DNA from: Turicibacter sanguinis
GTDB taxonomy: Bacteria; Bacillota_I; Bacilli_A; MOL361; Turicibacteraceae
Length of the DNA stretch: 64,000 nt
Reading direction: 5' to 3'
NCBI RefSeq assembly: GCF_013046825.1
Contig: NZ_CP053187.1
Coordinates: 1,787,501 to 1,851,500 of the forward strand
The notes under the pieces were generated by a model. It saw only the letters and a list, made by a program, of their open reading frames with translations. It ran no database searches and was not told the origin of the DNA. This document shows positions 3,771-59,681 of this stretch, piece after piece; position 1 is the stretch's first letter; the number at the start of each line of letters is the position of its first letter. The position numbers were made by a program, and so were the translations under genes.

Positions 3771-3775
3771 TAAAG

Positions 3776-3806
3776 AGCCTCAGCGATAGCTGAGGCTTTC
3801 TTTTTA
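3776..3806 (+). terminator. Rho-independent terminator after GPH symporter
   Basis: AGCCTCAGC / GCTGAGGCT 9-bp stem with a GATA loop, followed by TTCTTTTT, just after the stop codon. Confidence 0.9.
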
Positions 3807-4106
3807 GGTAAAAACGATGATGAAATGACAAAAAAGAAGATAATTTAATCAAATGAATAAGAATACGAGCAGATGTGTTAATACAGTCAAAAATATGTCT
3901 TTTTAAATAAAATTCAGGCAATCATTTTCCGACAATCAATCAAAGAATGGAGAAGAAGCCTGTCATATTAACGGAAAATCGACATTGTAAACGGTTAACT
4001 ATTCGTATTGTTGGATAGTTTTGTAAAATGATAGATTTTCAAAAATGGGTAAGGATGCTAAAATGTTGTTATATGTTTATTTAGGTTTAACTGGGGGGAA
4101 TTATAG
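3807..4106 (+). other. Intergenic region upstream of IF2-N/GT5 gene
   Basis: No gene or RNA recognised. A GTAAACGG core at about 3988 and a Shine-Dalgarno GGGGGGA (4093-4099) are the only marks seen; no convincing promoter could be picked. Confidence 0.35.
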
Positions 4107-5048
4107 ATGCGAGTATACGAATTTGCACGAAAATATAATATGACAAGTAAAGAAGTTGTAACGGTATGTCAAGAACTAGGGATTGAGGTCAAAGCTCAAT
4201 CTAAATTAAATGATGAATCTCTTGAAGTACTGAATGGACGTTTAAGTCAAGGAAAAGACACAGAGGTAAAAGAGATAAAAGAGGTCGTGAAGCCTACAGT
4301 CATTAAACGTCAAAAAGTTAAAAAACCAATGTTATATGTGGTAACGGAATGTGAACCATTTACAAACCTTGGAGAGCTTGGAAAAGTTTCGAAAGCATTT
4401 GTTGAAGCTCAAGAGGGAGATGTAATAGTGGCTTTACCAAAGTATTTAAATATATCTGAAACATTTGGAAATGAAATGGATTGGCTTATGGATTTACCGG
4501 TTAAATTCGGAACACATGAAGCTCGTGCTTCAATTTTTAAATTAGTAGAAGGAAATGTGACGTATTTATTTGTTGGAAATGATCACTACTTCCACCGTAA
4601 TGAGATTTATGGATTCGCAGATGATGTGGAACGTTTTGCTTTCTTTAATCGTGCCATCTTAGATGTGTTACCTCTTTTAGGAATGCAAGTGGGTGAAATT
4701 CAGGTGAATGAATGGCATACAAGTATGTTACCGTTAATGTTACATGTTGATTATCATCAACATCCTTATTTCTCGAAAGTCAAAACAACGTTAAACATTC
4801 ATAATTTAGAATATCAAGGTTGGTATGATGCAAGCATTTTAACAGAAGTATTAGGAATCAGTCGTGAGTATTATGACAATGGATTGACACGTATGGGGGA
4901 TTCTGTTAACTTACTAAAGAGTGGAATTGAAACAGCACATAAAGTCGTTTTAACAGATATTAGTGCTGGGCAAATGAAGTTAGATGGAATGGTGAACAGT
5001 GGAATTACGGCTGTTTTGGAAAATAAAGTCCTAAATCAAGCAGTATAA
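4107..5048 (+). CDS. IF2-N domain fused to a degenerate, half-length glycogen synthase (GT5) domain
   Basis: Residues 1-46 (MRVYEFARKYNMTSKEVV...) match the small N-terminal domain of translation initiation factor IF-2. After a charged linker (about 47-73), residues 74-300 resemble the N-terminal GT5 half of bacterial glycogen synthase: TECEPF near the start, IYGFADDVERFAFF in the middle and LNIHNLEYQG later, all alignable by eye to the GlgA part of the gene at 54.5 kb. The ADP-glucose/catalytic KTGGL motif is replaced by TNLGELG, the HDW motif by NEW, and the C-terminal GT1 half is absent. It is therefore unlikely to make glycogen; a binding or regulatory role is an inference. It stands alone between terminators. 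Start chosen by GGGGGGA 8 nt upstream. Confidence 0.8.
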   Translation: MRVYEFARKYNMTSKEVVTVCQELGIEVKAQSKLNDESLEVLNGRLSQGKDTEVKEIKEVVKPTVIKRQKVKKPMLYVVTECEPFTNLGELGKVSKAFVEAQEGDVIVALPKYLNISETFGNEMDWLMDLPVKFGTHEARASIFKLVEGNVTYLFVGNDHYFHRNEIYGFADDVERFAFFNRAILDVLPLLGMQVGEIQVNEWHTSMLPLMLHVDYHQHPYFSKVKTTLNIHNLEYQGWYDASILTEVLGISREYYDNGLTRMGDSVNLLKSGIETAHKVVLTDISAGQMKLDGMVNSGITAVLENKVLNQAV

Positions 5049-5056
5049 GAGATGAT

Positions 5057-5096
5057 GAGTTGTTTCAACAGAAGGTGAAACAACTCTTTTATTTTT
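5057..5096 (+). terminator. Rho-independent terminator
   Basis: 11-bp perfect stem GAGTTGTTTCA / TGAAACAACTC followed by TTTTATTTTT, shortly after the IF2-N/GT5 gene. Confidence 0.9.
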
Positions 5097-7446: not shown

Positions 7447-10400
7447 ATGAAAACAACAGAAGAAATTCAATCAGTGTTAATGAATCCAGAAATTTTTGAA
7501 ATCAACCGTTTAAAGGCACATAGTGATCATCGTTATTATCAAACATTAGCAGAAGCAGTGTCTAAAGGTGAGATGACGTGGCGCCACTCATTAAATGGAC
7601 AATGGTTATTTAAATATAGTGAAAATGTGATGGAGCGTCCAGTTGGGTTTGAAGCGTTAAACTTTAATCTTGATGGATTTGAGCGTATTAATGTTCCAGG
7701 GCATATCCAATTACAAGGTTATGATAAACCACACTATGTGAATACTCAGTATCCTTGGGATGGGCATGAAGAATTAAAACCTCCATACATTCCAGTTAAC
7801 TATAATCCAACGTCATCTTATGTGACTTACTTTGATGTGCCAAAAGAGTGGGGTGGGCAACCAGTTTGTATTTCATTTCAAGGGGTCGAGACTGCTTTTA
7901 ACGTTTGGTGTAATGGAGAGTTTGTTGGATATAGTGAGGATAGCTTTACGCCAAGTGAGTTTGACTTAACAAATTTTATCAACCGTGAAGGTGAAAATAA
8001 ATTAGCAGTTCAGGTTTATAAATGGTCAACAGGAAGTTGGCTTGAAGATCAAGATTTTTGGCGTTTATCAGGAATCTTCCGTGATGTTTATTTATTCACG
8101 AAACCAACGACTCATGTCGAAGACTTATTTGTGAAAACAACACTAAAAAATGACTATCAGGATGCAATGGTCAGCGTAGACTTCAGGGTAATCGGTGAAG
8201 AGGCAACGATTGTCGCACAATTAGTGGATGGAGAAGGTCAAGCTGTAGCAAGTGGAACTTGCGAAGTGGTAAATGAAACAGCACACCTTGAATTAGAAGT
8301 AGAAGGTGCTCACTTATGGAGTGCAGAACATCCGTATCTTTATCAATTGCAATTAGAAGTGAAAGTGAAAGGTGAAGTTGTTGAAGCGATTTGTCAACGT
8401 GTTGGAGTCCGCCAATTTGAAATGATTAATAAAGTGATGCACTTAAATGGAAAACGTATCGTCTTCCGTGGAGTTAATCGCCATGAATTTAGTGCGACTT
8501 ATGGACGTAGTGTCACAAATGAAGAAATGGAATGGGATGTTAAATTCTTAAAAGAATATAACTTCAATTCAGTTCGTACGTCACATTATCCAAATGCGTC
8601 TTACTTCTATGAATTATGTGATGAGTACGGTCTATATTTAATTGATGAAACGAATCTTGAAACACATGGAACTTGGCAACGTATGGGGGCAGTTGAAGAA
8701 AATGACGTGACACTTCCAAACGGACGTCCTGAATTTTTAGAAATTATTTTAGATCGTGCAAAGTCAATGCTTGAACGAGATAAAAACCACCCAAGTATTT
8801 TAATTTGGTCTTGTGGAAATGAAAGTTTCGGGGGAGAAAACTTATATAAAATGTCGGAGTACTTCAGACATCGTGATGAAACGCGCTTAGTCCATTACGA
8901 AGGGGTATTCTGGGATCGTCGTTTCAATGGGACATCGGATATGGAAAGTCGTATGTATGCAAAGGTTCCAGAAATCCGTGAATACTTAGATAATAATCCT
9001 GAAAAACCATTTATTTTATGTGAATATACCCATGCAATGGGCAACTCAAATGGTGGAATGGATCGCTACATTGAATTAGAAAATGAGTATGACATGTACC
9101 AAGGTGGATTCATTTGGGATTATATAGATCAAGCATTATGGACTGAAGATCGATATGGTAAGCCATATTTAGCGTTTGGTGGAGATTTTGGTGATCAGCC
9201 AACGGATTATAACTTCTGTGTCAATGGAATTATTTATGCTAATCGTGAAGCATCGCCAAAAATGCAAGCGATTAAAGGAGCATATCAACCATTTACAATT
9301 GAAGTTAAAGACGGTGGGGCGCAAATTCAAAACAAGAACATGTTCACAAATTTAAATGAATATACTCTAAAGTGGGAAATTGTGCGTGGTGAAGAAGTCG
9401 TATCATCTGGTGAGAGATACTATGATTTAGAACCATTATCAACTGGTTTCATTGATTTAGGGATCAATGTGACTCCACATCAGGAAGAACAAGTGATAAC
9501 CATCTCAATTTGTTTAAAAGAAGACACAATGTTTGCTCCATGTGGTCATGAGGTAGCATTTGGTCAGTTAATTGTGGATGCAGTTAAAGAAGAAGAGATT
9601 CGTCCTGTTAAAGCGTTCCAAATTGCAAATGGTGACGTGAATGTTGGAATTAGCGGTGAAGGATTTGAGGTCATATTTGCTAAAAACTTAGGACGTATGG
9701 TTTCAATGAAATATGATGGGATTGAGTATATTCACCAACCAAACTTATCGTTAATGCCAAATTTCTGGCGTGCATCAACGGATAATGATCGAGGAAATCA
9801 AGCGCCGATTAGAATGGCACAGTGGAAGTTGGCTTCGATGTATGCCTTCAATGAATTTATGGAAATTAATCGTCTTGAAGAAGGATTAGAAGTTATTTTT
9901 ACTTATAATTTAAATACAATGCCAGTTTCGCATGCAATTGTTAAATACTTCATTAATAGTTATGGTCAAATTCACGTGACAATGAGTTATGAAGGTGTTG
10001 AGGGATTACCAAACATGTTTAAGTTTGGAATGGATTTAGCGATTCCTTGTGAGTTCAATACGTTAACTTGGCGAGGATTTGGACCTGATGAAACGTATGC
10101 AGACCGTGAGTTTGGAGCACGCTATGGAACATTTACGAACAAAGTAGCTGACAATCTAGCGGCTTATGTGATTCCTCAAGCATGTGGAAATCATACGGGA
10201 GTACGTTATGCAACGTTAACAAACGAATCAGGAGCAGGGTTAAAAATTACAGGAGATGCTCCATTAAGTTTCTCAGCGCTTCCGTACACATCTCATGAGT
10301 TAGAAGCGGCGTTCCATCATTATGAATTGCCACCTGTTCACAAAACAGTTCTTTCAATTAATCATCAGGAAATGGGAGTTGGAGGCGATGATTCTTGGGG

Positions 10401-10479
10401 AGCGCGCCCAGACGCAAGATTTGAATTGCCAGCCAACATGAAGTATGAATATAGCTTTGTAATTGAGTCAGTAAAATAG
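7447..10479 (+). CDS. lacZ: Beta-galactosidase LacZ, GH2 family, copy 1
   Basis: Hydrolyses lactose and related beta-galactosides in the cytosol. The 1010 residues follow the E. coli LacZ plan: jelly-roll sugar-binding domain (about 50-220), immunoglobulin-like domain, TIM barrel (about 330-625) and C-terminal small-chain domain (about 740-1005). The acid/base is Glu459 in SCGNESFGG and the nucleophile Glu526 in LCEYTHAMGNSNGG. No signal peptide. Shine-Dalgarno GGGGAGG lies 11 nt upstream. A second full-length copy starts 234 bp downstream, of the same length and without gaps between the two catalytic residues. A transporter for lactose is not in the immediate neighbourhood; the GPH symporter at 2.4 kb or the binding protein at 14.7 kb may serve (inference). 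Confidence 0.96.
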   Translation: MKTTEEIQSVLMNPEIFEINRLKAHSDHRYYQTLAEAVSKGEMTWRHSLNGQWLFKYSENVMERPVGFEALNFNLDGFERINVPGHIQLQGYDKPHYVNTQYPWDGHEELKPPYIPVNYNPTSSYVTYFDVPKEWGGQPVCISFQGVETAFNVWCNGEFVGYSEDSFTPSEFDLTNFINREGENKLAVQVYKWSTGSWLEDQDFWRLSGIFRDVYLFTKPTTHVEDLFVKTTLKNDYQDAMVSVDFRVIGEEATIVAQLVDGEGQAVASGTCEVVNETAHLELEVEGAHLWSAEHPYLYQLQLEVKVKGEVVEAICQRVGVRQFEMINKVMHLNGKRIVFRGVNRHEFSATYGRSVTNEEMEWDVKFLKEYNFNSVRTSHYPNASYFYELCDEYGLYLIDETNLETHGTWQRMGAVEENDVTLPNGRPEFLEIILDRAKSMLERDKNHPSILIWSCGNESFGGENLYKMSEYFRHRDETRLVHYEGVFWDRRFNGTSDMESRMYAKVPEIREYLDNNPEKPFILCEYTHAMGNSNGGMDRYIELENEYDMYQGGFIWDYIDQALWTEDRYGKPYLAFGGDFGDQPTDYNFCVNGIIYANREASPKMQAIKGAYQPFTIEVKDGGAQIQNKNMFTNLNEYTLKWEIVRGEEVVSSGERYYDLEPLSTGFIDLGINVTPHQEEQVITISICLKEDTMFAPCGHEVAFGQLIVDAVKEEEIRPVKAFQIANGDVNVGISGEGFEVIFAKNLGRMVSMKYDGIEYIHQPNLSLMPNFWRASTDNDRGNQAPIRMAQWKLASMYAFNEFMEINRLEEGLEVIFTYNLNTMPVSHAIVKYFINSYGQIHVTMSYEGVEGLPNMFKFGMDLAIPCEFNTLTWRGFGPDETYADREFGARYGTFTNKVADNLAAYVIPQACGNHTGVRYATLTNESGAGLKITGDAPLSFSALPYTSHELEAAFHHYELPPVHKTVLSINHQEMGVGGDDSWGARPDARFELPANMKYEYSFVIESVK

Positions 10480-10713: not shown

Positions 10714-13700
10714 ATGAAAACGACGCAAGAGATTCAGTCAGTGTTAATGAATCTAGAAATTTTTGAAATTAATCGTTTAAAAGCACATAGTGATCATCGT
10801 TATTATCAAACATTAACAGAAGCCATTTCTAAAGTACAGATGACATGGCGTCGCTCATTAAATGGAGAATGGTTATTTAATTATAGTGAAAACGTGATGG
10901 AACGTCCGGTTGGATTTGAAGCGTTAAATTTTAATTGTCAGAATTTTAATCGTATTCATGTTCCAGGCCACATTCAATTACAAGGTTATGATAAACCTCA
11001 TTACGTAAATGCACAGTATCCTTGGGATGGGCACGAGGAGTTAGTCCCACCCTATATTCCGACGACATTTAATCCAACGGCTTCTTATGTCACTTACTTT
11101 GAAGTACCAAAAGAGTGGGAAGGACAAACGGTTTGTATTTCATTTCAAGGGGTTGAGACCGCCTTTAATGTCTGGTGTAATGGAGAGTTTGTTGGATATA
11201 GTGAGGATAGCTTTACACCGAGTGAATTTGATTTAACAAACTTCATCAACCGTGAAGGTGAAAATAAATTAGCAGTTCAGGTTTATAAATGGTCAACAGG
11301 AAGTTGGCTTGAAGATCAAGATTTTTGGCGTTTATCAGGAATTTTTCGTGATGTTTATTTATTCACGAAACCAACAACGCATGTGGAAGATTTATTTGTG
11401 AAAACAACACTAAAAAATGACTATCAGGATGCAACGGTAAGCGTAGACTTCAAGGTAATCGGTCAACAGGCAACAATTGTTTCACAATTAGTAGATGCAA
11501 ATGGACAGGTTGTGGCTAGTGGAGCTTGTGATGTTTTTGATGGATGTGCAAAATTAGAGTTAGATATCACTAATGCTCACTTATGGAGTGCAGAACATCC
11601 GTATCTTTATCAATTGCAATTAGAGGTAAAGGTAAAAGGTGAAGTTGTTGAAGGGATTTGTCAACGTGTCGGAATTCGTCAATTTGAAATGATTAATAAA
11701 GTGATGCATTTAAATGGGAAACGCATCGTGTTCCGAGGTGTAAATCGTCATGAATTTAGTGCAACTTACGGACGTAGTGTAACAAAAGAAGAGATGGAAT
11801 GGGATGTGAAATTTTTAAAAGAGCATAATTTTAATGCAGTTCGTACCTCACATTATCCAAACGCTTCGTATTTCTATGAGTTATGTGATGAATATGGATT
11901 ATATTTAATTGATGAAACGAATCTTGAAACTCATGGGACTTGGAAGTATGGTGTTTCGGTTGAAGAAAATGAGCCGGCTATTCCAAACGGACGTCCTGAA
12001 TTTTTAGAAATTATTTTAGATCGTGCAAAGTCAATGCTTGAACGAGATAAAAACCATCCAAGTATTTTAATTTGGTCTTGTGGAAATGAAAGTTTTGGGG
12101 GAGAAAACTTATACAAAATGTCACAGTACTTCCGTGAAGCTGATGAAACCCGCCTTGTTCACTATGAAGGAGTTTTTCATGACCGCCGTTATCATAAAAC
12201 ATCAGATATGGAAAGTCGCATGTATACGAGAGTTCCTGAAATTCGTGAATACTTGGATAACCATCCTGAAAAGCCATTTATTTTATGTGAATATACCCAT
12301 GCAATGGGCAACTCAAATGGTGGAATGGACCGCTACATTGAGCTTGAAGATGAGTACGAGATGTACCAAGGTGGATTCATATGGGACTATATTGATCAAG
12401 CGTTATGGACAAAGGATCGCTACGGTAAGCCATATTTAGCGTTCGGTGGAGATTTTTCTGATCAGCCAACGGATTATAATTTCTGTGTCAACGGAATTAT
12501 TTATGCGAATCGTGAAGCATCACCAAAAATGCAAGCGATTAAAGGGGCATATCAACCCTTTACGGTGATTGTAAAAGAGGGTGGAGCACAGATTCAGAAC
12601 AAGCATTTATTTACGAATTTAAATGAATATACACTGAAGTGGGAGGTTGAATCGGGTGAAAAATTAGTAGCATCTGGTGAGGGATACTATAACTTAGAAC
12701 CATTATCAACAGGATTTATTGATTTAGGAATCGATATGACGCCACGTCAGGAGGAATTAGTGGTAACTGTTTCAATCTGTTTAAAAGAAGATAAATTATT
12801 CGCTTCATGTGGACATGAGATAGCATTTGGTCAATGCATCATAGAGGCAGTTAAAGAAGAAGCAGCTCAACCTGTAAAAGAATTTACGATTGTAGAAGGT
12901 AGTACAAATGTTGGAATTCATGGTGAAGGATTTGAAGTGCTGTTTGGTAAAATACTCGGGCGCATCGTATCGATAAAATATGATGGTGTGGAGTATATTC
13001 ATCAACCAAACTTATCATTGATGCCAAGCTTCTGGCGAGCGGCGACTGATAATGATCGTGGAAGTCGAGCTCATCTTCAATCTGCACAATGGAGAACAGC
13101 AACCCTTTCTTCATTCCATGAAAAATTAGAATTTAATCGACGTGTAGACGGCTTAGAAGTAATCATTACGTATAATTTAAATACCATTCCAAGTTCTCAT
13201 GCTATCGTGACCTACTTTATTAATAGTTATGGACAAATTCATGTTCACATGAGTTATAAAGGTATTGAAGGCTTACCAAATATGTTCAAATTTGGAATGG
13301 ATTTAGCGATTCCATGTGAGTTTAATACATTAACATGGCGAGGATTCGGGCCAGATGAAACATATGCTGACCGTGAATTTGGGGCTAAATATGGAACTTA
13401 TACAAATAAAGTTGCTGATAATGTAGCAGGATATGTGATTCCTCAAGCATGTGGAAATCACACGAGAGTACGTTATGCAACCATAACGAATGCAACTGGA
13501 GCAGGATTAAAAATTACAGGAGATGCTCCATTAAGTTTCTCAGCTTTACCTTATACATCTCATGAATTAGAAGTAGCGTTCCACCATTATGAATTACCAC
13601 CTGTCCATAAAACAGTTCTTTCGATTAACGCTCAAGAAATGGGAGTTGGAGGTGATGATTCTTGGGGAGCACGCCCAGAAGCGAGATTTGAATTGCCTGG

Positions 13701-13746
13701 TAACGAAAATTATGAATACAGTTTTGTGATTGAGCCGACAAAATAA
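10714..13746 (+). CDS. lacZ: Beta-galactosidase LacZ, GH2 family, copy 2
   Basis: Second full-length beta-galactosidase with the same 1010-residue length and domain plan as the preceding gene; acid/base Glu459 and nucleophile Glu526 fall at identical positions. Most of the chain is close to copy 1, but differences cluster around residues 400-412 (TWKYGVSVEENEP against TWQRMGAVEENDV), 485-500 and 780-810, next to or near the catalytic barrel and in the C-terminal domain, so substrate preference may differ. Several stretches match copy 1 base for base, which points to gene conversion after duplication. Shine-Dalgarno GTGGGGG lies upstream of the ATG. The 234-bp gap and terminator suggest separate control. 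Confidence 0.96.
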   Translation: MKTTQEIQSVLMNLEIFEINRLKAHSDHRYYQTLTEAISKVQMTWRRSLNGEWLFNYSENVMERPVGFEALNFNCQNFNRIHVPGHIQLQGYDKPHYVNAQYPWDGHEELVPPYIPTTFNPTASYVTYFEVPKEWEGQTVCISFQGVETAFNVWCNGEFVGYSEDSFTPSEFDLTNFINREGENKLAVQVYKWSTGSWLEDQDFWRLSGIFRDVYLFTKPTTHVEDLFVKTTLKNDYQDATVSVDFKVIGQQATIVSQLVDANGQVVASGACDVFDGCAKLELDITNAHLWSAEHPYLYQLQLEVKVKGEVVEGICQRVGIRQFEMINKVMHLNGKRIVFRGVNRHEFSATYGRSVTKEEMEWDVKFLKEHNFNAVRTSHYPNASYFYELCDEYGLYLIDETNLETHGTWKYGVSVEENEPAIPNGRPEFLEIILDRAKSMLERDKNHPSILIWSCGNESFGGENLYKMSQYFREADETRLVHYEGVFHDRRYHKTSDMESRMYTRVPEIREYLDNHPEKPFILCEYTHAMGNSNGGMDRYIELEDEYEMYQGGFIWDYIDQALWTKDRYGKPYLAFGGDFSDQPTDYNFCVNGIIYANREASPKMQAIKGAYQPFTVIVKEGGAQIQNKHLFTNLNEYTLKWEVESGEKLVASGEGYYNLEPLSTGFIDLGIDMTPRQEELVVTVSICLKEDKLFASCGHEIAFGQCIIEAVKEEAAQPVKEFTIVEGSTNVGIHGEGFEVLFGKILGRIVSIKYDGVEYIHQPNLSLMPSFWRAATDNDRGSRAHLQSAQWRTATLSSFHEKLEFNRRVDGLEVIITYNLNTIPSSHAIVTYFINSYGQIHVHMSYKGIEGLPNMFKFGMDLAIPCEFNTLTWRGFGPDETYADREFGAKYGTYTNKVADNVAGYVIPQACGNHTRVRYATITNATGAGLKITGDAPLSFSALPYTSHELEVAFHHYELPPVHKTVLSINAQEMGVGGDDSWGARPEARFELPGNENYEYSFVIEPTK

Positions 13747-51417: not shown

Positions 51418-53328
51418 ATGATTGAATTTACATCAGGTGATCGTTATTTATTTAATGAAGGAACACATAAACAACTATATAAGAAGTTTGGATCTTTTGT
51501 TGTTCGTGATAATGAAGAAGTGTTGGGAACGTATTTTTGTGTTTATGCACCACATGCTTCAAAAGTTTGTGTAGTAGGGGATTTTAATCATTGGAATGGA
51601 ACGCATCATGAGATGCGAAGAGATGATGGGATTTGGTCATTGTTTATTCCAGGAATTGGTGAAGGTTCTATCTATAAGTATGAGATTGTAACGGCTTTTG
51701 GTCAAACCATTTTAAAGGCTGATCCATATGCCTTTTATGCGGAACAACGTCCAAATACGGCTTCTATTGTTTATGATATTGAGGGGTTTGAATGGACAGA
51801 TGCAGAGTGGGCGAAAAAACGTCAATTTTCGAATATTTTTGAGGAGCCATTAAATATTTATGAACTTCATTTAGGATCTTGGAGACGTAATAAAGAATTA
51901 GTAGAGTCTGAAACGTTTCATAGCTATACTGAAATTATGGATGAGTTAATTGAATATGTTTTAGAGCATAGTTATACGCATATTGAATTGATGCCTTTAT
52001 ATGAGCATCCATTTGATGGGTCATGGGGATATCAAGCAACAGGATACTATGCGGCAAGTAGTCGTTATGGTGAACCAAAAGATTTAATGATGTTAATTAA
52101 TCGTTGTCATGAAGCGGGAATAGGGGTCATTATGGACTGGGTACCAGGACATTTTTGTCGTGATGCTCACGGTTTATTTAAATTCGATGGAGAAGCAGTC
52201 TATGAGTATCCATATGAGGATGTAGCCGTTTCAGAATGGGGAACAGGAAACTTTGATTTAGGTAAAGGAACAGTTCGCAGTTTCTTAATTTCAAATGCTC
52301 TTTTTTGGATGAAGTATTATCACGTAGATGGTTTCCGTGTCGATGCGGTTGCGAATATGATTTATTGGGATGGAAATAAGTCTCGCGGTGTGAATCATGG
52401 CGCTGTAGAGTTTATTCAAAAGTTAAATGAGGCAGTTTTCTTAGAAGATGATAAGATTTTAATGATTGCTGAAGATTCAACCAGTTATCCGTTAGTAACA
52501 GCACCAGTATCGGTAGGTGGACTTGGTTTTAGTTATAAATGGAATATGGGATGGATGAATGATACGTTAGATTACATTGAATTAGATAATATTTATCGCC
52601 CATATCACCACAATTACATTACTTTTGCAATGGCTTATGCTTACAGTGAAAACTTCGTTCTTCCATTCTCTCACGATGAAGTAGTTCATGGAAAGAAATC
52701 ATTAGTGGATAAGGCACCAGGTGATTACTGGCAAAAGCTTGCACAATTTAGATTGCTATGTACCTATCAAATGACGTTGCCAGGGAAAAAATTGAACTTT
52801 ATGGCGAATGAAATTGCACAGTTTCATGAGTGGAAAGATAAAGAACAGGTGGATTGGCATTTATTAAAATATCCGGCACATGATGCTTCGAATCGTTATA
52901 TTAAAGATTTAAATAAATTGTATTTAAATGAGCCAGCACTTTGGGAACTTGATCACTCATTTGAAGGATTTGAATGGATTGATGTGAATAATAATGAGCA
53001 GAGTATTTTCTCTTATATCCGTAAATGTAAGAATGCGGATGAATTTGTTGTAGTGGTACTAAACTTTAAACCAGTTCCATATCATCAATATAGAGTGGGG
53101 GTTCCATGCTTTGGAGAGTATACAGAGGCCCTAAATAGTGATCGTGATTATTATCATGGTTCAAATCAATATAATGGATTGCCATTAGTGGCGAAAAAAG
53201 GGATGACACATGGGAAACCATATTATATTGAAGTAACGATTCCACCTTATGGAGCAACGATTTTTAAATATCGTCCACTCGAAGAAGAAACAGAGGTAGA
53301 AGAAGGGTTAGAAGTTGAACTAGCTTAA
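51418..53328 (+). CDS. glgB: 1,4-alpha-glucan branching enzyme
   Basis: Introduces alpha-1,6 branches into glycogen. The 636 residues comprise a CBM48 domain (about 25-115), a GH13 barrel (about 150-520) and a C-terminal beta domain. The nucleophile is Asp309 in GFRVDAVANM, the acid/base Glu352 in IAEDSTSYP, and the third Asp lies in PFSHDEVVHGK. First gene of glgB-glgC-glgDA; glgC starts 17 bp later. Confidence 0.96.
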   Translation: MIEFTSGDRYLFNEGTHKQLYKKFGSFVVRDNEEVLGTYFCVYAPHASKVCVVGDFNHWNGTHHEMRRDDGIWSLFIPGIGEGSIYKYEIVTAFGQTILKADPYAFYAEQRPNTASIVYDIEGFEWTDAEWAKKRQFSNIFEEPLNIYELHLGSWRRNKELVESETFHSYTEIMDELIEYVLEHSYTHIELMPLYEHPFDGSWGYQATGYYAASSRYGEPKDLMMLINRCHEAGIGVIMDWVPGHFCRDAHGLFKFDGEAVYEYPYEDVAVSEWGTGNFDLGKGTVRSFLISNALFWMKYYHVDGFRVDAVANMIYWDGNKSRGVNHGAVEFIQKLNEAVFLEDDKILMIAEDSTSYPLVTAPVSVGGLGFSYKWNMGWMNDTLDYIELDNIYRPYHHNYITFAMAYAYSENFVLPFSHDEVVHGKKSLVDKAPGDYWQKLAQFRLLCTYQMTLPGKKLNFMANEIAQFHEWKDKEQVDWHLLKYPAHDASNRYIKDLNKLYLNEPALWELDHSFEGFEWIDVNNNEQSIFSYIRKCKNADEFVVVVLNFKPVPYHQYRVGVPCFGEYTEALNSDRDYYHGSNQYNGLPLVAKKGMTHGKPYYIEVTIPPYGATIFKYRPLEEETEVEEGLEVELA

Positions 53329-53345
53329 CACACAAGAAATGGGGG

Positions 53346-54512
53346 ATGGGGTTGGCTGTCAATGTTGTGGCGATTATATTAGCCGGGGGAAAAGGGACGC
53401 GCTTAAAAGAATTAACGATTCATCGTCCAAAACCAGCTATTTCGTTTGCTGGAAAGTATCGATTGATTGATTTTGTTTTAAGCAATTGTACGAATTCAGG
53501 GATTGAACAAGTAGGGGTTCTAACACAGTATGAACCCCTAGAATTAATTAGTTATATTGGAGAAGGTAGTTCGTGGGATTTAGATGTTCATGGAGCATCT
53601 GTTACGGTTATGGGACCATATACTTCACGTGATTATGGATTTTTATGGCAAGGTGGAACGGCCGAAGCTGTCATTATGAATATGCCGTTTATTGAGCAGT
53701 ATGATCCTGATTATTTACTTGTCTTATCTGCAGATCACATTTATAAAATGGACTATCGTAAACTTATTGACTATCATATTGAAAAGCAGGCTGAGTTAAC
53801 GATTTCAACGATTCGTGTTCCAAAAGAGGATACCAGTCGTTTTGGAATGTTAAAGGTTAACGATCAAAATCGAATTATTGAGTTTGAGGAAAAGCCAAAG
53901 GAGACGGATAGTCAGTTAGCTTCAATGGGAATTTATGTTTTTAATTGGAAGAAGTTTAAAGAGGAGATTGTCCATAAATATTACAAGCATTTGTATGAAG
54001 GTGTTGATTTTGCTCAAGATGTGATTCCACATTTTATTGAAGCAGATAGCGCTGTTTATGCATATGAGTATGAAGGGTATTGGCGTGATGTTGGAACAGT
54101 AGAAAGTTATTGGAAGGCTCATATGGATTTACTTGGCACTCAAGATGAGCTACAATTACACGATTATAGCTGGCCAATTTTTTCTAAAACACCAAATTTA
54201 CCCCCACATCATATTCTTCAGGGTGCTAAAGTGAAGAATGCTTGGGTGAATGAAGGATGCATGATTTTTGGCGAAGTGTATAATTCGATTGTTGCTCATC
54301 GATGTGTGATTGAAAAAGGTGCTGTTGTTGAAGATAGTGTGATTTTAACGAGCGCATTTATCGAACATGATTGTTATATTAAGTATGCAATTATTGGAGA
54401 TGAAGTCGTTATTCCGGCGCATACTGAATTGATTGGTCGTGAGGATGAAATTTTACTTGTGACTCATGATAATCTTGAGGAAATACTTGAAACTCAAAGT
54501 AGGGGGGATTGA
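53346..54512 (+). CDS. glgC: Glucose-1-phosphate adenylyltransferase, catalytic subunit
   Basis: Makes ADP-glucose from ATP and glucose-1-phosphate. A 388-residue protein with the nucleotidyltransferase motif ILAGGKGTRLKEL, YRLIDFVLSNC, and a left-handed beta-helix domain from about 290. ATG 53346 has no spaced ribosome site, whereas TTG 53352 lies 6 nt after GGGGG and would give a protein two residues shorter; the choice is open. Pairs with the GlgD half of the next gene. Confidence 0.93.
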   Translation: MGLAVNVVAIILAGGKGTRLKELTIHRPKPAISFAGKYRLIDFVLSNCTNSGIEQVGVLTQYEPLELISYIGEGSSWDLDVHGASVTVMGPYTSRDYGFLWQGGTAEAVIMNMPFIEQYDPDYLLVLSADHIYKMDYRKLIDYHIEKQAELTISTIRVPKEDTSRFGMLKVNDQNRIIEFEEKPKETDSQLASMGIYVFNWKKFKEEIVHKYYKHLYEGVDFAQDVIPHFIEADSAVYAYEYEGYWRDVGTVESYWKAHMDLLGTQDELQLHDYSWPIFSKTPNLPPHHILQGAKVKNAWVNEGCMIFGEVYNSIVAHRCVIEKGAVVEDSVILTSAFIEHDCYIKYAIIGDEVVIPAHTELIGREDEILLVTHDNLEEILETQSRGD

Positions 54513-54514
54513 GA

Positions 54515-56962
54515 GTGAAGAATAAGGCCTTGTGTGTAATTGATGGAACCAATACGTCTCAATCGTTGCAGAATTTATTAAATCAACGTTGTGTAGCCGC
54601 CTTACCATTTGCAGGACGCTACCGATTAATTGATTTTGCTTTATCTAATGCAGTGCATTCAGGCATTACGAACGTATCAATCTTTCCAGACGGTGACTAT
54701 CATTCCTTAAGTGATCATATTCGTTCCGGCAAGTTTTGGGGCCTTGATCGTAAGGTGGATGGCCTATTTTTATTGCCTCCCAAAAAAGAAGTGAGTGCCG
54801 TGGCCAATACATTGACATTTGCGAGAATGAGGGAATATATTGAGTATTTTATGCGATCACGGCAACAATATGTTGTGATGTACCATGCGAATATTATTAC
54901 ATCTATTCCTTTTGAAAAATTACTACAATCTCATATTGAATCGAAAGCAGATGTGACACAAGTTTATTATCGAAATCGCTCAGTTGGTATTTTTGTACTA
55001 TCTCGCGAGTACTTAATTGATTTAATTTTACGGTATGAGATTTCTCCGTATCAGACAGTGACAGATTTAGTCGAAATGTGTGATGGTTTAAAAGTTAATC
55101 ATTATCACCATTCTACTTATACGAGAACGATTGAATCCATTGTGTCGTATTATCGTGCTAATTTAGATATGTTACATTATGAGTATGGATTTCAAATCTT
55201 CTTGTTAGAGCGACCTGTATTAACGAAAACAAAGGACGAATCACCAACGTTTTATAAAAAACAAGCCGATGTTTCAAATTCCTTAATTGCAAATGGGTGT
55301 AATATTGAAGGAAAAGTTGAAAATTGTATTATTTTTCGTGATGTAACGATTAAACGAGGTGCGGTTGTTAAAAATTCGGTTATTTTACCAAGGACCATTA
55401 TTGGTGAAAATAGTATTATTAATAATGTGATTACAGATAAGCATGCTTATATTAATGATGGAGCTCGATTAAGTGGTCAAGATTATGCACCTGTTATTAT
55501 CGGTAAGGGGCAACGTGTGATGGGGAATAAAGGCATTAGTGTAGCCCAAATTTCAACTGAATGTGTTCCCTTTTATAAAACAGGTGGTTTAGCGGATGTG
55601 ACTGCTGATTTAACGAAAGAATTGATTAATCAAGGATTAAATGTGGATGTTATTTTACCCTATTTAAGCTCTTTAGCTGAACGTTATAATGAAAATTTAA
55701 CTCATCAATTTCAATCCTTAATAGCAATTAATGAGTTAGAGATTCCTTATGATGTTTATCGTTATTCAAAAGAAGGGGTAAACTATTTCTTTATTTCATA
55801 TGGCGAATTATCACGTGAAAATTTATATGGCTATTCAGATGATTGTCGTCGATATGAATTATACTGCTATGTGGCACTCGATTTTATTGAGAAGAGTGGG
55901 CTGAAGTATGATGTCATTCATTGTCATGACTGGTTAACAGGACTTGTTCCGTTTTTTATGAAAAATATATTTATGAAGCAGTCTGATCATTTTGCTTATA
56001 CTAAAACAGTTTTCACGATTCATAATATTCATTATCAAGGGATTTGTGATGTGTCTGATTTAGGGGTTATTTCAACGCTAGCTACGATTCCAAATGAAAT
56101 TATGCTATTTGAAAAAGTGAATTTTATGAAGACCGCTATTGTAATGAGTGATGAAATTACAACAGTGTCCGAAACGTATTGTAATGAAATTTGTTATCCT
56201 TATTTTGCTGAAGGATTAGACCGTTTTATTGTCGCAAGAAAAGATCATCTTCACGGAATTTTAAATGGAATTAACTATGATTATAATAATCCAGCTACTG
56301 ATTTAAGTATCTTTAAGCGCTACTCTTTTAAAACAATAGAAGTTAAAAAGGAAAATAAAATGCAGATGCAACGTGAGCTAGGATTAGTCGTGAATGCAAA
56401 TGTACCGATTATCGGGATGGTAACGAGAATGGTAGAACAAAAAGGATTCGATTTGATTTTAAAAGTATTTGAAGAATTAATTCGTGAAGATATTCAGTTT
56501 GTTTTACTTGGAGATGGAGAGGCGAAGTATACGAGCTTCTTTAGGAGAATGGCCGAAAAATATCCAACTAAGGTATCTGTTAACATAGGGTTCCATTCCT
56601 ATAATTCTCAGATGATTTATGCGGGAAGTGATATTTTCCTCATGCCATCACGCTTTGAACCATGTGGCATTAGCCAGATGATTGCACTCAAGTATGGGAC
56701 CATTCCCGTTGTGCGCGAAACGGGTGGTTTGAAAGATACGATTATTCCGTATAATGAGTTTATTCAATATGGAAATGGATTTGGTTTTGCGCATTATAAT
56801 GCGCATGATATGTTGTTTACGCTTAAGCGAGCATTAGGATTTTATCGGATGCCAGAACACTGGGGGAAATTAGTTAAAAGTGCAATGGAACAAGATTTGA
56901 GTTGGAAAAAATCAACGGAAAAATATATTAATTTATATCGTCATTTAGTAAATGAAGAATAG
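54515..56962 (+). CDS. GlgD-GlgA fusion: GlgC-like regulatory subunit joined to glycogen synthase
   Basis: A single 815-residue reading frame. Residues 1-338 are GlgD, the non-catalytic ADP-glucose pyrophosphorylase partner (AALPFAGRYRLIDFALSNAV, but no GGxGTRL loop at the N-terminus; here IDGTNTSQSL). Residues 341-815 are a complete glycogen synthase: KTGGL (356-360), HCHDWLTGLVP, FTIHNIHYQG, the GT1 half with GMVTRMVEQKG and the ExxxxxxxE segment EPCGISQMIALKYGT. Each half is usually encoded separately (glgD about 370, glgA about 475 residues). No linker separates them. GTG 54515 has AGGGGGG upstream and lies 2 bp after glgC. The fusion ties ADP-glucose production to its use. Confidence 0.93.
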   Translation: MKNKALCVIDGTNTSQSLQNLLNQRCVAALPFAGRYRLIDFALSNAVHSGITNVSIFPDGDYHSLSDHIRSGKFWGLDRKVDGLFLLPPKKEVSAVANTLTFARMREYIEYFMRSRQQYVVMYHANIITSIPFEKLLQSHIESKADVTQVYYRNRSVGIFVLSREYLIDLILRYEISPYQTVTDLVEMCDGLKVNHYHHSTYTRTIESIVSYYRANLDMLHYEYGFQIFLLERPVLTKTKDESPTFYKKQADVSNSLIANGCNIEGKVENCIIFRDVTIKRGAVVKNSVILPRTIIGENSIINNVITDKHAYINDGARLSGQDYAPVIIGKGQRVMGNKGISVAQISTECVPFYKTGGLADVTADLTKELINQGLNVDVILPYLSSLAERYNENLTHQFQSLIAINELEIPYDVYRYSKEGVNYFFISYGELSRENLYGYSDDCRRYELYCYVALDFIEKSGLKYDVIHCHDWLTGLVPFFMKNIFMKQSDHFAYTKTVFTIHNIHYQGICDVSDLGVISTLATIPNEIMLFEKVNFMKTAIVMSDEITTVSETYCNEICYPYFAEGLDRFIVARKDHLHGILNGINYDYNNPATDLSIFKRYSFKTIEVKKENKMQMQRELGLVVNANVPIIGMVTRMVEQKGFDLILKVFEELIREDIQFVLLGDGEAKYTSFFRRMAEKYPTKVSVNIGFHSYNSQMIYAGSDIFLMPSRFEPCGISQMIALKYGTIPVVRETGGLKDTIIPYNEFIQYGNGFGFAHYNAHDMLFTLKRALGFYRMPEHWGKLVKSAMEQDLSWKKSTEKYINLYRHLVNEE

Positions 56963-56972
56963 TTTAGAGGAA

Positions 56973-57020
56973 CTTGTGATTTAATACGGTAAGAGATCGT
57001 GTTAAATCATGAGTTTTTTA
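56973..57020 (+). terminator. Rho-independent terminator after glgDA
   Basis: CTTGTGATTTAATACG / CGTGTTAAATCATGAG 16-bp stem (two G-U pairs) and T6 run. Confidence 0.88.
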
Positions 57021-57124
57021 TTTTCAGAATTGTTTCTTAATGAGTAATCTTTAAAATGTTAGGGTTATCATAGAAACAAGTGTTTTATCAAATAATATCG
57101 AATCTTCACTATAACAAGAAACGC

Positions 57125-57220
57125 GTTACATGGGTTAAAACCCTTTATTATCAATGTTTATGTGCTATAATGAGTTTATGAAATGGAAAAAAGTGTGTAA
57201 CTGTTACATATGTGTTACAT
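57125..57220 (+). promoter_or_regulatory. glgP promoter with GTTACAT repeats
   Basis: Extended -10 TGCTATAAT at 57163-57171. GTTACAT occurs three times (57125, 57203, 57214), and TGTAAC-T-GTTACA (57196-57208) is a perfect inverted repeat in the leader, between start of transcription and ribosome site. A dedicated regulator may bind these; none is recognised. Confidence 0.45.
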
Positions 57221-57245
57221 AATAATGGAAGGGAGTCATCTCGCT

Positions 57246-59681
57246 ATGGCTAATGTATTTGCTAATAAAAAGACATTTAAGGAAACATTCCAAACACGTG
57301 TTGAACAAATTTATGGGATTAAGTTTGAAGAAAGTACACCACACCAACGTTACTTTACGTTAGGAACGCTAGTTCGTGAATATATCTCATCTAACTGGAT
57401 TGAAACGAATGAAGCAATTGTTGAGGGGAAACACAAGCAAGTTTATTATTTCTCTATGGAATTCCTAATGGGGCGTTTATTAACAAATAATATTATGAAC
57501 TTAGGAATTCGCCCGGTGATTGAAGCTGGATTAAAAGAGCTAGATATAGAATTAAATGAATTAGAAAAAATTGAAGCGGATGCAGGACTTGGAAATGGAG
57601 GTCTTGGTCGTTTAGCAGCATGTTTTATGGATTCAATTGCTTCTTTAGGATTACCAGGACACGGGAATGGTCTTCGTTACCGTTATGGATTCTTTGAACA
57701 AAAAATTATCGATGGATACCAAGTTGAAGTTCCAGATAAATGGTTACAACGTGGGTATGTATGGGAAGTTCGTAAATCAAATGAATCAGTTGAAGTTCCA
57801 TTTTATGGATATGTTAAAGTTGAAAAAATAGATGGGCGTGAAGTTTATACTCATATCCCAGAAGAATATGTTCGTGCTGTTCCTTATGATGTACCAGTTG
57901 TTGGAGATATTTCAAATGGAAATAAAACAGTTGATACCTTACGTTTATGGTCATCTGAACCAACTGAAAATGAATATCCAAAAAATATGTCAGCTGTTGA
58001 ATATGAAAAAGGAGTTCGTAACATCTCTGAATTCTTATATCCAGATGATTCAACAGAAGAAGGAAAAATCTTACGTTTAAAACAACAATATTTCTTCGTT
58101 GCAGCGGGAGTTCGTTGGGCAGTTCGCCAACATAAAGAAACATTTGGAACATTAGATAACTTCATGGACAAAAATGTATTACACATCAACGATACTCATC
58201 CAGCTTTAATTGTTCCTGAATTAATGCGTATTTTAATCGATGAAGAGGGTTATGATTGGGATAGCGCATGGGCTATTACAAGTAAAACGTGTGCGTATAC
58301 AAACCATACTATCTTAGCTGAAGCCTTAGAAAAATGGCCTGTACGCTTATTCCAACCATTATTACCACGTATCTATATGATTACAGAGGAAATCAACCGT
58401 CGTTATTGTTTAGAATTATTAAATCGTTATGCGGATCAACCACAAAAAGTTGCTGAACTTGCCATTATCGGACATAATCAAGTGCGTATGGCACACTTAG
58501 CAATTGTTGGATCATTTAGTATCAATGGGGTAGCGCAATTACATACAGATATCTTAACTCAAATTGAGATGAAAGATTTCAATGAAATGTATCCAGAACG
58601 TTTCAATAATAAAACAAACGGTATTACTCACCGTCGTTGGTTATTACACTGTAACCCTGAGTTAACCGCTCTTTTAGATAAAGAAATCGGAACAGGGTAT
58701 CATACGAATACATTTGAACTTGCGAAGTTTGAAGAAAAAATTAATGATCCAAAAGTTCAAGAGGCCATTGCTTCAATGAAGCATGCAAGAAAACAAGCCT
58801 TAGCAGAACGTATTTATCGTGAGCAAGGGGTTCAATTAGATCCAAACTCAATTTTTGATATTCAAGTTAAACGTCTACATGCTTACAAACGTCAGCTATT
58901 AAATGCAATGCATATCATGTATTTATATAACCGATTAAAAGAAGATCAAGAGTTCAAAGCTAACTTCCACCCACAATCATTCATCTTCGGTGCTAAAGCA
59001 GCTTCAGGATATTACTTTGCGAAGAAAGTTATTAAATTAATTAATTCAATTGCTGAAAAAGTAAATAATGATCCAGATACAAATCAGTTATTAAAAGTTG
59101 TATTCGTTGAAAACTATAACGTAACTTATGCTGAATTAATTATGCCGGCTGCAGATTTATCAGAACAAATTTCAACAGCATCTAAAGAAGCGTCAGGAAC
59201 AGGAAACATGAAATTCATGATGAATGGTGCGATGACAATTGGAACGATGGATGGAGCAAATGTTGAAATTCATGAGTTAGTTGGAGATGAAAATAGCTTT
59301 ATCTTTGGATTAACTGCTGATGAAGTAAATAATTATTATCAAAATGGAGGATATAATCCATGGGATCTTTATAACTCAGATGCACGTATCCGCCGCGTTC
59401 TTGATCAATTGGTTAATGGATTCTTAACACCAGATACAGAAGAATTCCGTGATATCTTCAATGCAGTAACACATAATGGGGATGAATACTTCGTATTAAA
59501 AGACTTCGATTCATATGTTCGTGCTCAAGAAAAAGCAAACCAAGCTTATAAAAACCGTCAACATTGGATTGAAATGTCTATCCGCAATATCTCACGTTCA
59601 GGTAAATTCTCATCAGACCGAACTATCCAAGAATATGCTGATCAAATTTGGCACGTGGAACCATTAAAATTTAAAAAATAA
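57246..59681 (+). CDS. glgP: Glycogen phosphorylase
   Basis: Releases glucose-1-phosphate from glycogen with phosphate. The 811-residue GT35 enzyme shows ADAGLGNGGLGRLAACFMDS in the N-terminal part and PLP-binding Lys656 in SGTGNMKFMMNGA. ATG 57246 has GGAAGGGAG upstream; the 12 codons before it lack a ribosome site. It follows the glycogen operon but has its own promoter, separated by a terminator. Confidence 0.96.
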   Translation: MANVFANKKTFKETFQTRVEQIYGIKFEESTPHQRYFTLGTLVREYISSNWIETNEAIVEGKHKQVYYFSMEFLMGRLLTNNIMNLGIRPVIEAGLKELDIELNELEKIEADAGLGNGGLGRLAACFMDSIASLGLPGHGNGLRYRYGFFEQKIIDGYQVEVPDKWLQRGYVWEVRKSNESVEVPFYGYVKVEKIDGREVYTHIPEEYVRAVPYDVPVVGDISNGNKTVDTLRLWSSEPTENEYPKNMSAVEYEKGVRNISEFLYPDDSTEEGKILRLKQQYFFVAAGVRWAVRQHKETFGTLDNFMDKNVLHINDTHPALIVPELMRILIDEEGYDWDSAWAITSKTCAYTNHTILAEALEKWPVRLFQPLLPRIYMITEEINRRYCLELLNRYADQPQKVAELAIIGHNQVRMAHLAIVGSFSINGVAQLHTDILTQIEMKDFNEMYPERFNNKTNGITHRRWLLHCNPELTALLDKEIGTGYHTNTFELAKFEEKINDPKVQEAIASMKHARKQALAERIYREQGVQLDPNSIFDIQVKRLHAYKRQLLNAMHIMYLYNRLKEDQEFKANFHPQSFIFGAKAASGYYFAKKVIKLINSIAEKVNNDPDTNQLLKVVFVENYNVTYAELIMPAADLSEQISTASKEASGTGNMKFMMNGAMTIGTMDGANVEIHELVGDENSFIFGLTADEVNNYYQNGGYNPWDLYNSDARIRRVLDQLVNGFLTPDTEEFRDIFNAVTHNGDEYFVLKDFDSYVRAQEKANQAYKNRQHWIEMSIRNISRSGKFSSDRTIQEYADQIWHVEPLKFKK

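Follow-up and report, generated by a model that had tools for sequence, protein, structure and literature searches.

The gene and its surroundings

The window, a stretch of 64,000 nucleotides of Turicibacter sanguinis (contig NZ_CP053187.1, positions 1,787,501 to 1,851,500), contains near its beginning a gene for a protein of 313 residues, in which an IF2_N domain is followed by a linker and by the GT5 half of a glycogen synthase (Table 1). Its neighbors in the window's genus are a sugar transporter gene on one side and, on the other, a gene for a methionine aminopeptidase-like protein that has a SEC-C motif; galactosidase and galactose genes are close to it. Five terminator-like sites were found in the region compared with 0.4 expected. 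Because one such hairpin belongs to the upstream transporter gene and another directly follows the gene, the latter is probably a transcription unit of its own, transcribed alone. A tandem pair of similar beta-galactosidase-like genes is also present in the window.

Table 1 Features of the window and of the loci used for comparison (positions without a prefix refer to the window; L numbers designate loci in other contigs or genomes).
Feature	Position	Strand	Basis
CDS, 313 aa, IF2_N + GT5-half pseudo-glycogen-synthase	4107..5048	+	ORF bounds exact, open
IF2_N domain, residues 1-46, N1 type of IF-2	4107..4244	+	Pfam, predicted structure, identity
Linker, residues 47-72, disordered core 51-63	4245..4322	+	pLDDT <50 at 51-63; lowest identity among orthologues
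GT5 half (N-terminal Rossmann domain of glycogen/starch synthase), residues 73-313	4323..5045	+	Pfam, VIA
Degenerate KTGGL loop, TNLGELG, residues 86-92	4362..4382	+	Alignment
Promoter-like site, TG ahead of second hexamer	4036..4064	+	Consensus match only; count not above shuffled sequence
Strong ribosome-binding-site-like GGGGGGA, 7 nt 5' of ATG	4093..4099	+	Sequence
Terminator-like hairpin directly 3' of the gene	5057..5086	+	Terminator scan
Terminator-like hairpin of upstream transporter gene	3774..3799	+	Terminator scan
Beta-galactosidase-like genes, 1010 aa, tandem pair	7447-10479 and 10714-13746
Glycogen set, glgB-glgC-GlgD/GlgA fusion-glgP	51418-59681
GlgD-GlgA fusion	54509-56962
Second glgC-glgA pair, same genome	L041:1889-4549		GlgA stand-alone
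Full-length IF2_N-GlgA of G064	L166:6186-7793	-
Epimerase-like gene	L031:5359-6105	+
Epimerase-like gene	L032:7332-8072	-
Epimerase-like gene	L034:6263-7000	-
Epimerase-like gene	L169:3587-4324	+

Predicted folds and substrate-site residues

Pfam assigned IF2_N to residues 1-42 (1.7e-8) and Glyco_transf_5 to residues 76-282 (8.9e-43) and gave no match to a GT1 domain, in agreement with the first-pass annotation, which had described an IF2_N domain joined to only the GT5 half. The GTPase and tRNA-binding domains of IF-2 were likewise not matched by Pfam or NCBIfam, and the true infB is located elsewhere in the genome, separate from this gene. The score against the GlgA model TIGR02095 (132 bits) is far below its curated cut-off of 328, and even the best-scoring GlgA model, whose cut-off is 603, gave 188.8 bits. 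An AlphaFold2 model of the whole protein, calculated from 42 aligned sequences of the window and the loci, has a mean pLDDT of 92.5, with values below 50 confined to the linker core. The GT5 half superimposes on Arabidopsis SS4 (6gne_B) with a VIA Z-score of 28.5 (2.4 Å over 238 residues) and on E. coli glycogen synthase (2qzs) with a Z-score of 25.9, covering model residues 71-312. Modelled alone, the first 50 residues gave a pLDDT of 90.6 and matched solved IF2 (4b44) over all 50 residues (Z 8.3, 1.3 Å), and IF-2 chains are the top matches of the sequence profile of this piece. Structure prediction thus supports both folds that had been proposed.

In the genomes compared, PF04760 exceeds its curated cut-off only in IF-2 (usually in two copies, N1 and N2), in the present family and in one IF2_N-GlgA protein. 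The IF2_N domain of the window protein shares on average 36% identity with N1 and 21% with N2 of IF-2 from its own and related genomes, and 39% with N1 of the same genome.

To describe the substrate site, residues are numbered as in E. coli GlgA, and 32 intact GlgA sequences are compared with 13 family members. The KTGGL lysine (Lys15) occurs at the aligned column in 30/32 intact GlgA vs 1/13 members, there beside an alignment gap; the window protein has N. The GT1 half with R300, K305, and E377 is absent from the window protein and all 12 orthologues, so that N246, R300, K305, Y355, and E377 are gone along with it. With neither the KTGGL lysine nor any of the donor-binding GT1 half, the protein has almost certainly lost catalysis. 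The segments singled out in the first-pass annotation are present (TNLGELG at residues 86-92, NEW at 201-203, and IHNLEYQG at 231-238), and its view of a retained fold with lost catalysis agrees with the high Z-scores and with the absence of Lys15 and the GT1 half. Of the two motif losses on which that view had rested, the one in KTGGL held up and the change of HDW to NEW did not. At this site (136-138 in E. coli), N and H are equally frequent in intact GlgA (16/32 each), and only the D to E change is unusual. As N is normal there in Bacillota GlgA, NEW was discarded as proof of lost catalysis.

Thirty-seven positions are conserved in 30 or more of the 32 intact GlgA. Those poorly retained in the family are K15 (1/13), G18 (4/13), T159 (5/13), H161 (4/13), T210 (0/13), and V211-S212 (2/13). 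These losses cluster in the KTGGL loop, at the T159-N162 strand end and in the TVS hinge, which face the donor and the domain that is missing. E9, P12, P42, R90, G102, D105, W138, and G167 are fully retained (13/13), Y165 is Tyr in all 13, and D137 is kept in 12/13, the change to E being private to the window protein. The donor-binding His161, which is the H of the IHN motif, is retained in the window protein and in 4/5 members of the window's family (f1), while all 8 members of a second family (f8) have Tyr at this position, so that the pair H161-N162 is gone in f8, as is a part of the KTGGL loop. In a published table of contacts, E9, L19, Y95, D137, and Y165 touch the acceptor glucose, and K15, G18, and H161 touch ADP-glucose (PMC6210743). 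It is mainly this asymmetry, with acceptor-side residues kept and the donor side lost, that favors glucan binding; the retained acceptor-side residues may be kept for folding rather than for sugar binding.

Distribution, neighborhood, and origin of the family

The same combination of IF2_N and GT5 half occurs in 13 species of two bacterial families, so neither chance nor an assembly error explains it. It is carried by 5/8 genomes of the Turicibacteraceae-like family f1 (G000, G001, G003, G004, and G006) and by 8/8 genomes of f8, which belongs to the same class; the f1 non-carriers are two genomes of the genus g2 and G002, a draft of 85% completeness. Searches were run with the window protein and with the family alignment. 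Outside f1 and f8, no match with E <= 1e-56 was obtained in 392 genomes of the phylum, and in a class sample of 395 genomes the remaining listed matches do not start at the N-terminal domain. A scan of genome contigs yielded nothing with the single protein as the query; with the alignment, 80 loci were kept, of which one, in a Turicibacter MAG, has the complete architecture; the others were mostly ordinary GlgA as judged by matched range and identity. The best 5 of 22 matched plasmid records begin past the IF2_N domain, and PHROGs contained no match to the family. The orthologue of G003 (L038:5898-7067, +) has a linker enlarged by imperfect repeats of ~13 residues (EACLVEMDTNDEV-like).

Pairwise dN/dS among the orthologues is 0.07-0.23, values that are rough owing to high dS. 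They indicate that the gene is kept by selection, even in species without GlgA and GlgC. The frameshift or local truncation that the first-pass annotation had named as its counter-explanation is ruled out by 13 intact orthologues, which share the half architecture and none of which has a GT1 half. The protein represents a conserved pseudoenzyme family; for its mechanism, discussed below, our confidence is moderate to low.

In f8, the gene is preceded in order by genes for a phosphoglucomutase, an aminopeptidase P and an epimerase-like protein. The tightest layouts have gaps of 10-15 nt or an overlap of 14 nt, and additional genes interrupt the run in G014 and G064. The epimerase-like protein (about 245 aa) is found in 8/8 f8 genomes and is absent from f1. 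It aligns partially to the ordinary aldose 1-epimerase of the same genome, and the usual catalytic His and Glu positions are missing in this alignment. Two degenerate sugar enzymes, the epimerase-like protein and the half synthase, are therefore encoded in the same run where f8 neighborhoods were read. In G006 of f1, a phosphoglucomutase gene (pgcA) and an epimerase gene have the same orientation as the family gene and are separated from it by a few others; pgcA does not adjoin it in the window's genus.

In a tree of the GT5 part, the 13 half proteins fall on one side of a weakly supported branch (72/19), and the f1 set and the f8 set are both well supported. Besides its half protein, G064 encodes an IF2_N domain joined to a full-length GlgA, which has the donor-site changes K15R, R300P, and K305R and is probably inactive too. 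Its gene is located between prmC-like and enolase genes, and the same flanks are found at the GlgA region of G056. The stand-alone GlgA of G056 (L177, about 2560-2675, +) has an in-frame TAA just 5' of KTGGL and may be a pseudogene or reflect a sequencing error. The full-length form of G064 groups with ordinary f8 GlgA (96/87) and not clearly with the halves; a single clade of the halves and this form was not rejected (AU test, p 0.30). The IF2_N domains of f1 and f8 share 31% identity, which is no higher than their identity to IF-2 itself, so this measure does not settle the number of fusions. Two histories would fit: repeated joining of IF2_N to GlgA-type proteins, or an exchange of pieces among paralogues.

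Possible roles and known counterparts

The window genome has a full synthase within the GlgD-GlgA fusion of its glycogen set, as the first-pass annotation stated, and a second glgC-glgA pair elsewhere. Carriers in f1 also hold GlgA or GlgDA, GlgC-type, and GlgP genes. Five f8 carriers (G014, G025, G036, G072, and G080), however, have neither GlgA nor GlgC over the cut-off; completeness is only 85% for G072 and 91-100% for the other four. The family is accordingly independent of glycogen synthase and ADP-glucose. Binding to the synthase, suggested earlier, fails as a general role, and co-occurrence with GlgD-GlgA fusions is not strict, since fusion-size ORFs (806-847 aa) occur in class mates without the family gene and the fusion is absent in 5 carriers. 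On the same grounds, we rejected the idea that the protein always acts together with a glycogen synthase or a GlgD-GlgA fusion. The suggested binding of ADP-glucose is unlikely, at least in the usual way, because in the crystal structure of a GT5 enzyme the adenine of ADP is held solely by the C-terminal domain (PMC6086201), because practically no member retains Lys15, and because five carriers lack a GlgC over the cut-off. An alpha-glucan phosphorylase is encoded in all 16 genomes, which makes maltodextrin a possible ligand.

From the architecture, the predicted folds, the lost donor site, the retention of the gene and its independence of GlgA and GlgC, we tentatively infer a non-catalytic adaptor that would bind alpha-glucan and carry a docking domain of the IF2-N1 type. 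The acceptor-holding half of a GlgA gene would have been joined to a copy of IF-2 N1, with loss of the donor half. The GT5 half would then hold a glucan end, of maltodextrin or of a glycogen chain, in the old acceptor site, and N1 would dock the protein on a component of the gene-expression machinery by the same surface as in IF-2. In E. coli, N1 of IF2 crosslinks in vivo to NusA and binds its C-terminal part (PMC12297416). The NusA of the window genome, read by eye, has a frame of 353 codons that ends after KH2 and has no acidic repeats; as it lacks the AR1 domain used in the E. coli model, NusA cannot be assumed to be the partner here. Of the earlier suggestions, binding of glucan is plausible, as is a connection with the expression machinery. 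Further points speak against the adaptor: the loss of the H161-N162 pair and of part of the KTGGL loop in f8 could weaken acceptor binding, and in the window's genus the gene is near galactosidase genes and away from pgcA.

Rather unlikely, in our judgment, is an accessory of glycogen synthase or of the glycogen granule, in which the half protein would pair with GlgA, GlgD-GlgA or nascent glycogen and start or shape glycogen like plant SS5. The analogy comes from SSV of pea and maize, reported to have GT5 without GT1 (PMC8396644), and from SS5, which another paper calls a nonenzymatic starch synthase promoting granule initiation (PMC10801857); the glycogen genes of the f1 carriers are also in its favor. 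It is opposed by the five f8 carriers without GlgA and GlgC and by genus g2 and G002, which have glycogen synthesis genes and no family gene.

A sugar-responsive regulator that binds nucleic acid is kept under consideration, as the IF2_N fold is near that of DNA-binding domains; we regard it as doubtful. IF2_N would be its helix-turn-helix, resembling that of MerR, and its GT5 half the sensor of a sugar or nucleotide sugar. The model of IF2_N can be superimposed on the DNA-binding domains of pSK1 Par (Z 7.7), RacA (6.2), and the MerR-type CueR/CadR (4.6-4.7), although Z-scores of 6-8 over 50 helical residues can reflect a common arrangement, and IF2 remains the top match in structure (8.3) as in sequence. 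The f8 copies of IF2_N are basic (net charge +1 to +7) and the gene is among sugar genes, whereas the window's clade is neutral (-1 to 0).

It also seems unlikely that the protein is a glucan-sensing pseudo-glycosyltransferase that connects through its IF2-N1 domain with NusA or with the machinery of 30S initiation and directly couples alpha-glucan status to transcription-translation, with IF2_N joined to GlgA more than once (in the halves and in the full-length form of G064). Quite improbable is a structural or metabolic moonlighting partner of neighboring sugar enzymes, such as the phosphoglucomutase and the degenerate epimerase of f8, with IF2_N only as a protein-protein or dimerization module: the tight, operon-like f8 run with its second apparently degenerate protein and the nearby, co-oriented pgcA of G006 would fit, but the degenerate epimerase is absent from f1 and pgcA does not adjoin the gene in the window's genus. 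That an IF2_N-GlgA fusion was truncated locally or is decaying, and that the gene is its functionless remainder, for which the full-length form of G064 could be cited, is extremely improbable, as the gene is open and conserved in 13 species with low dN/dS and an intact predicted fold, and that form groups with f8 GlgA rather than clearly with the halves.

The adaptor that we tentatively prefer can be set beside several known proteins. Pseudoenzymes in the synthesis of storage polysaccharides are known to be important in plants, SS5 being the example. Like GlgA (TIGR02095, PF08323 + PF00534), the window protein has the N-terminal GT5 fold and many of its conserved positions, while it differs in lacking GT1, Lys15, and R300/K305/E377 and in having an extra IF2_N domain. 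Plant SS5/SSV shares the presence of GT5 without GT1 and, in SS5 as described, the nonenzymatic character. SS5 is a plant plastid protein and, to our knowledge, has no IF2_N domain, and species of the present family can do without any synthase, five carriers being without one. By analogy, the family would work at most like SS5.

A bacterial GT5 piece kept without the rest is likewise mentioned in a review, as a conserved GlgA-GT5 fragment in Bacteroidetes (PMC11046441); the fragment belongs to the phylum Bacteroidota, and its description there mentions no IF2_N. No paper came up in a full-text literature search that combined IF2_N and glycogen synthase, and in that search the combination of a bacterial pseudo-synthase with a translation-factor domain was found described nowhere. 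As a small and conserved family that can be separated from glycogen synthesis, it is well suited for a clean test of the idea that a fold of glycosyltransferases has turned into a scaffold or a sensor of sugars. With IF-2 N1, the protein shares the fold and the identity given above, without the linker, G, and tRNA-binding domains of IF-2; as a natural second protein with N1, it would provide an independent probe of what N1, recently reported to bind NusA, docks to.
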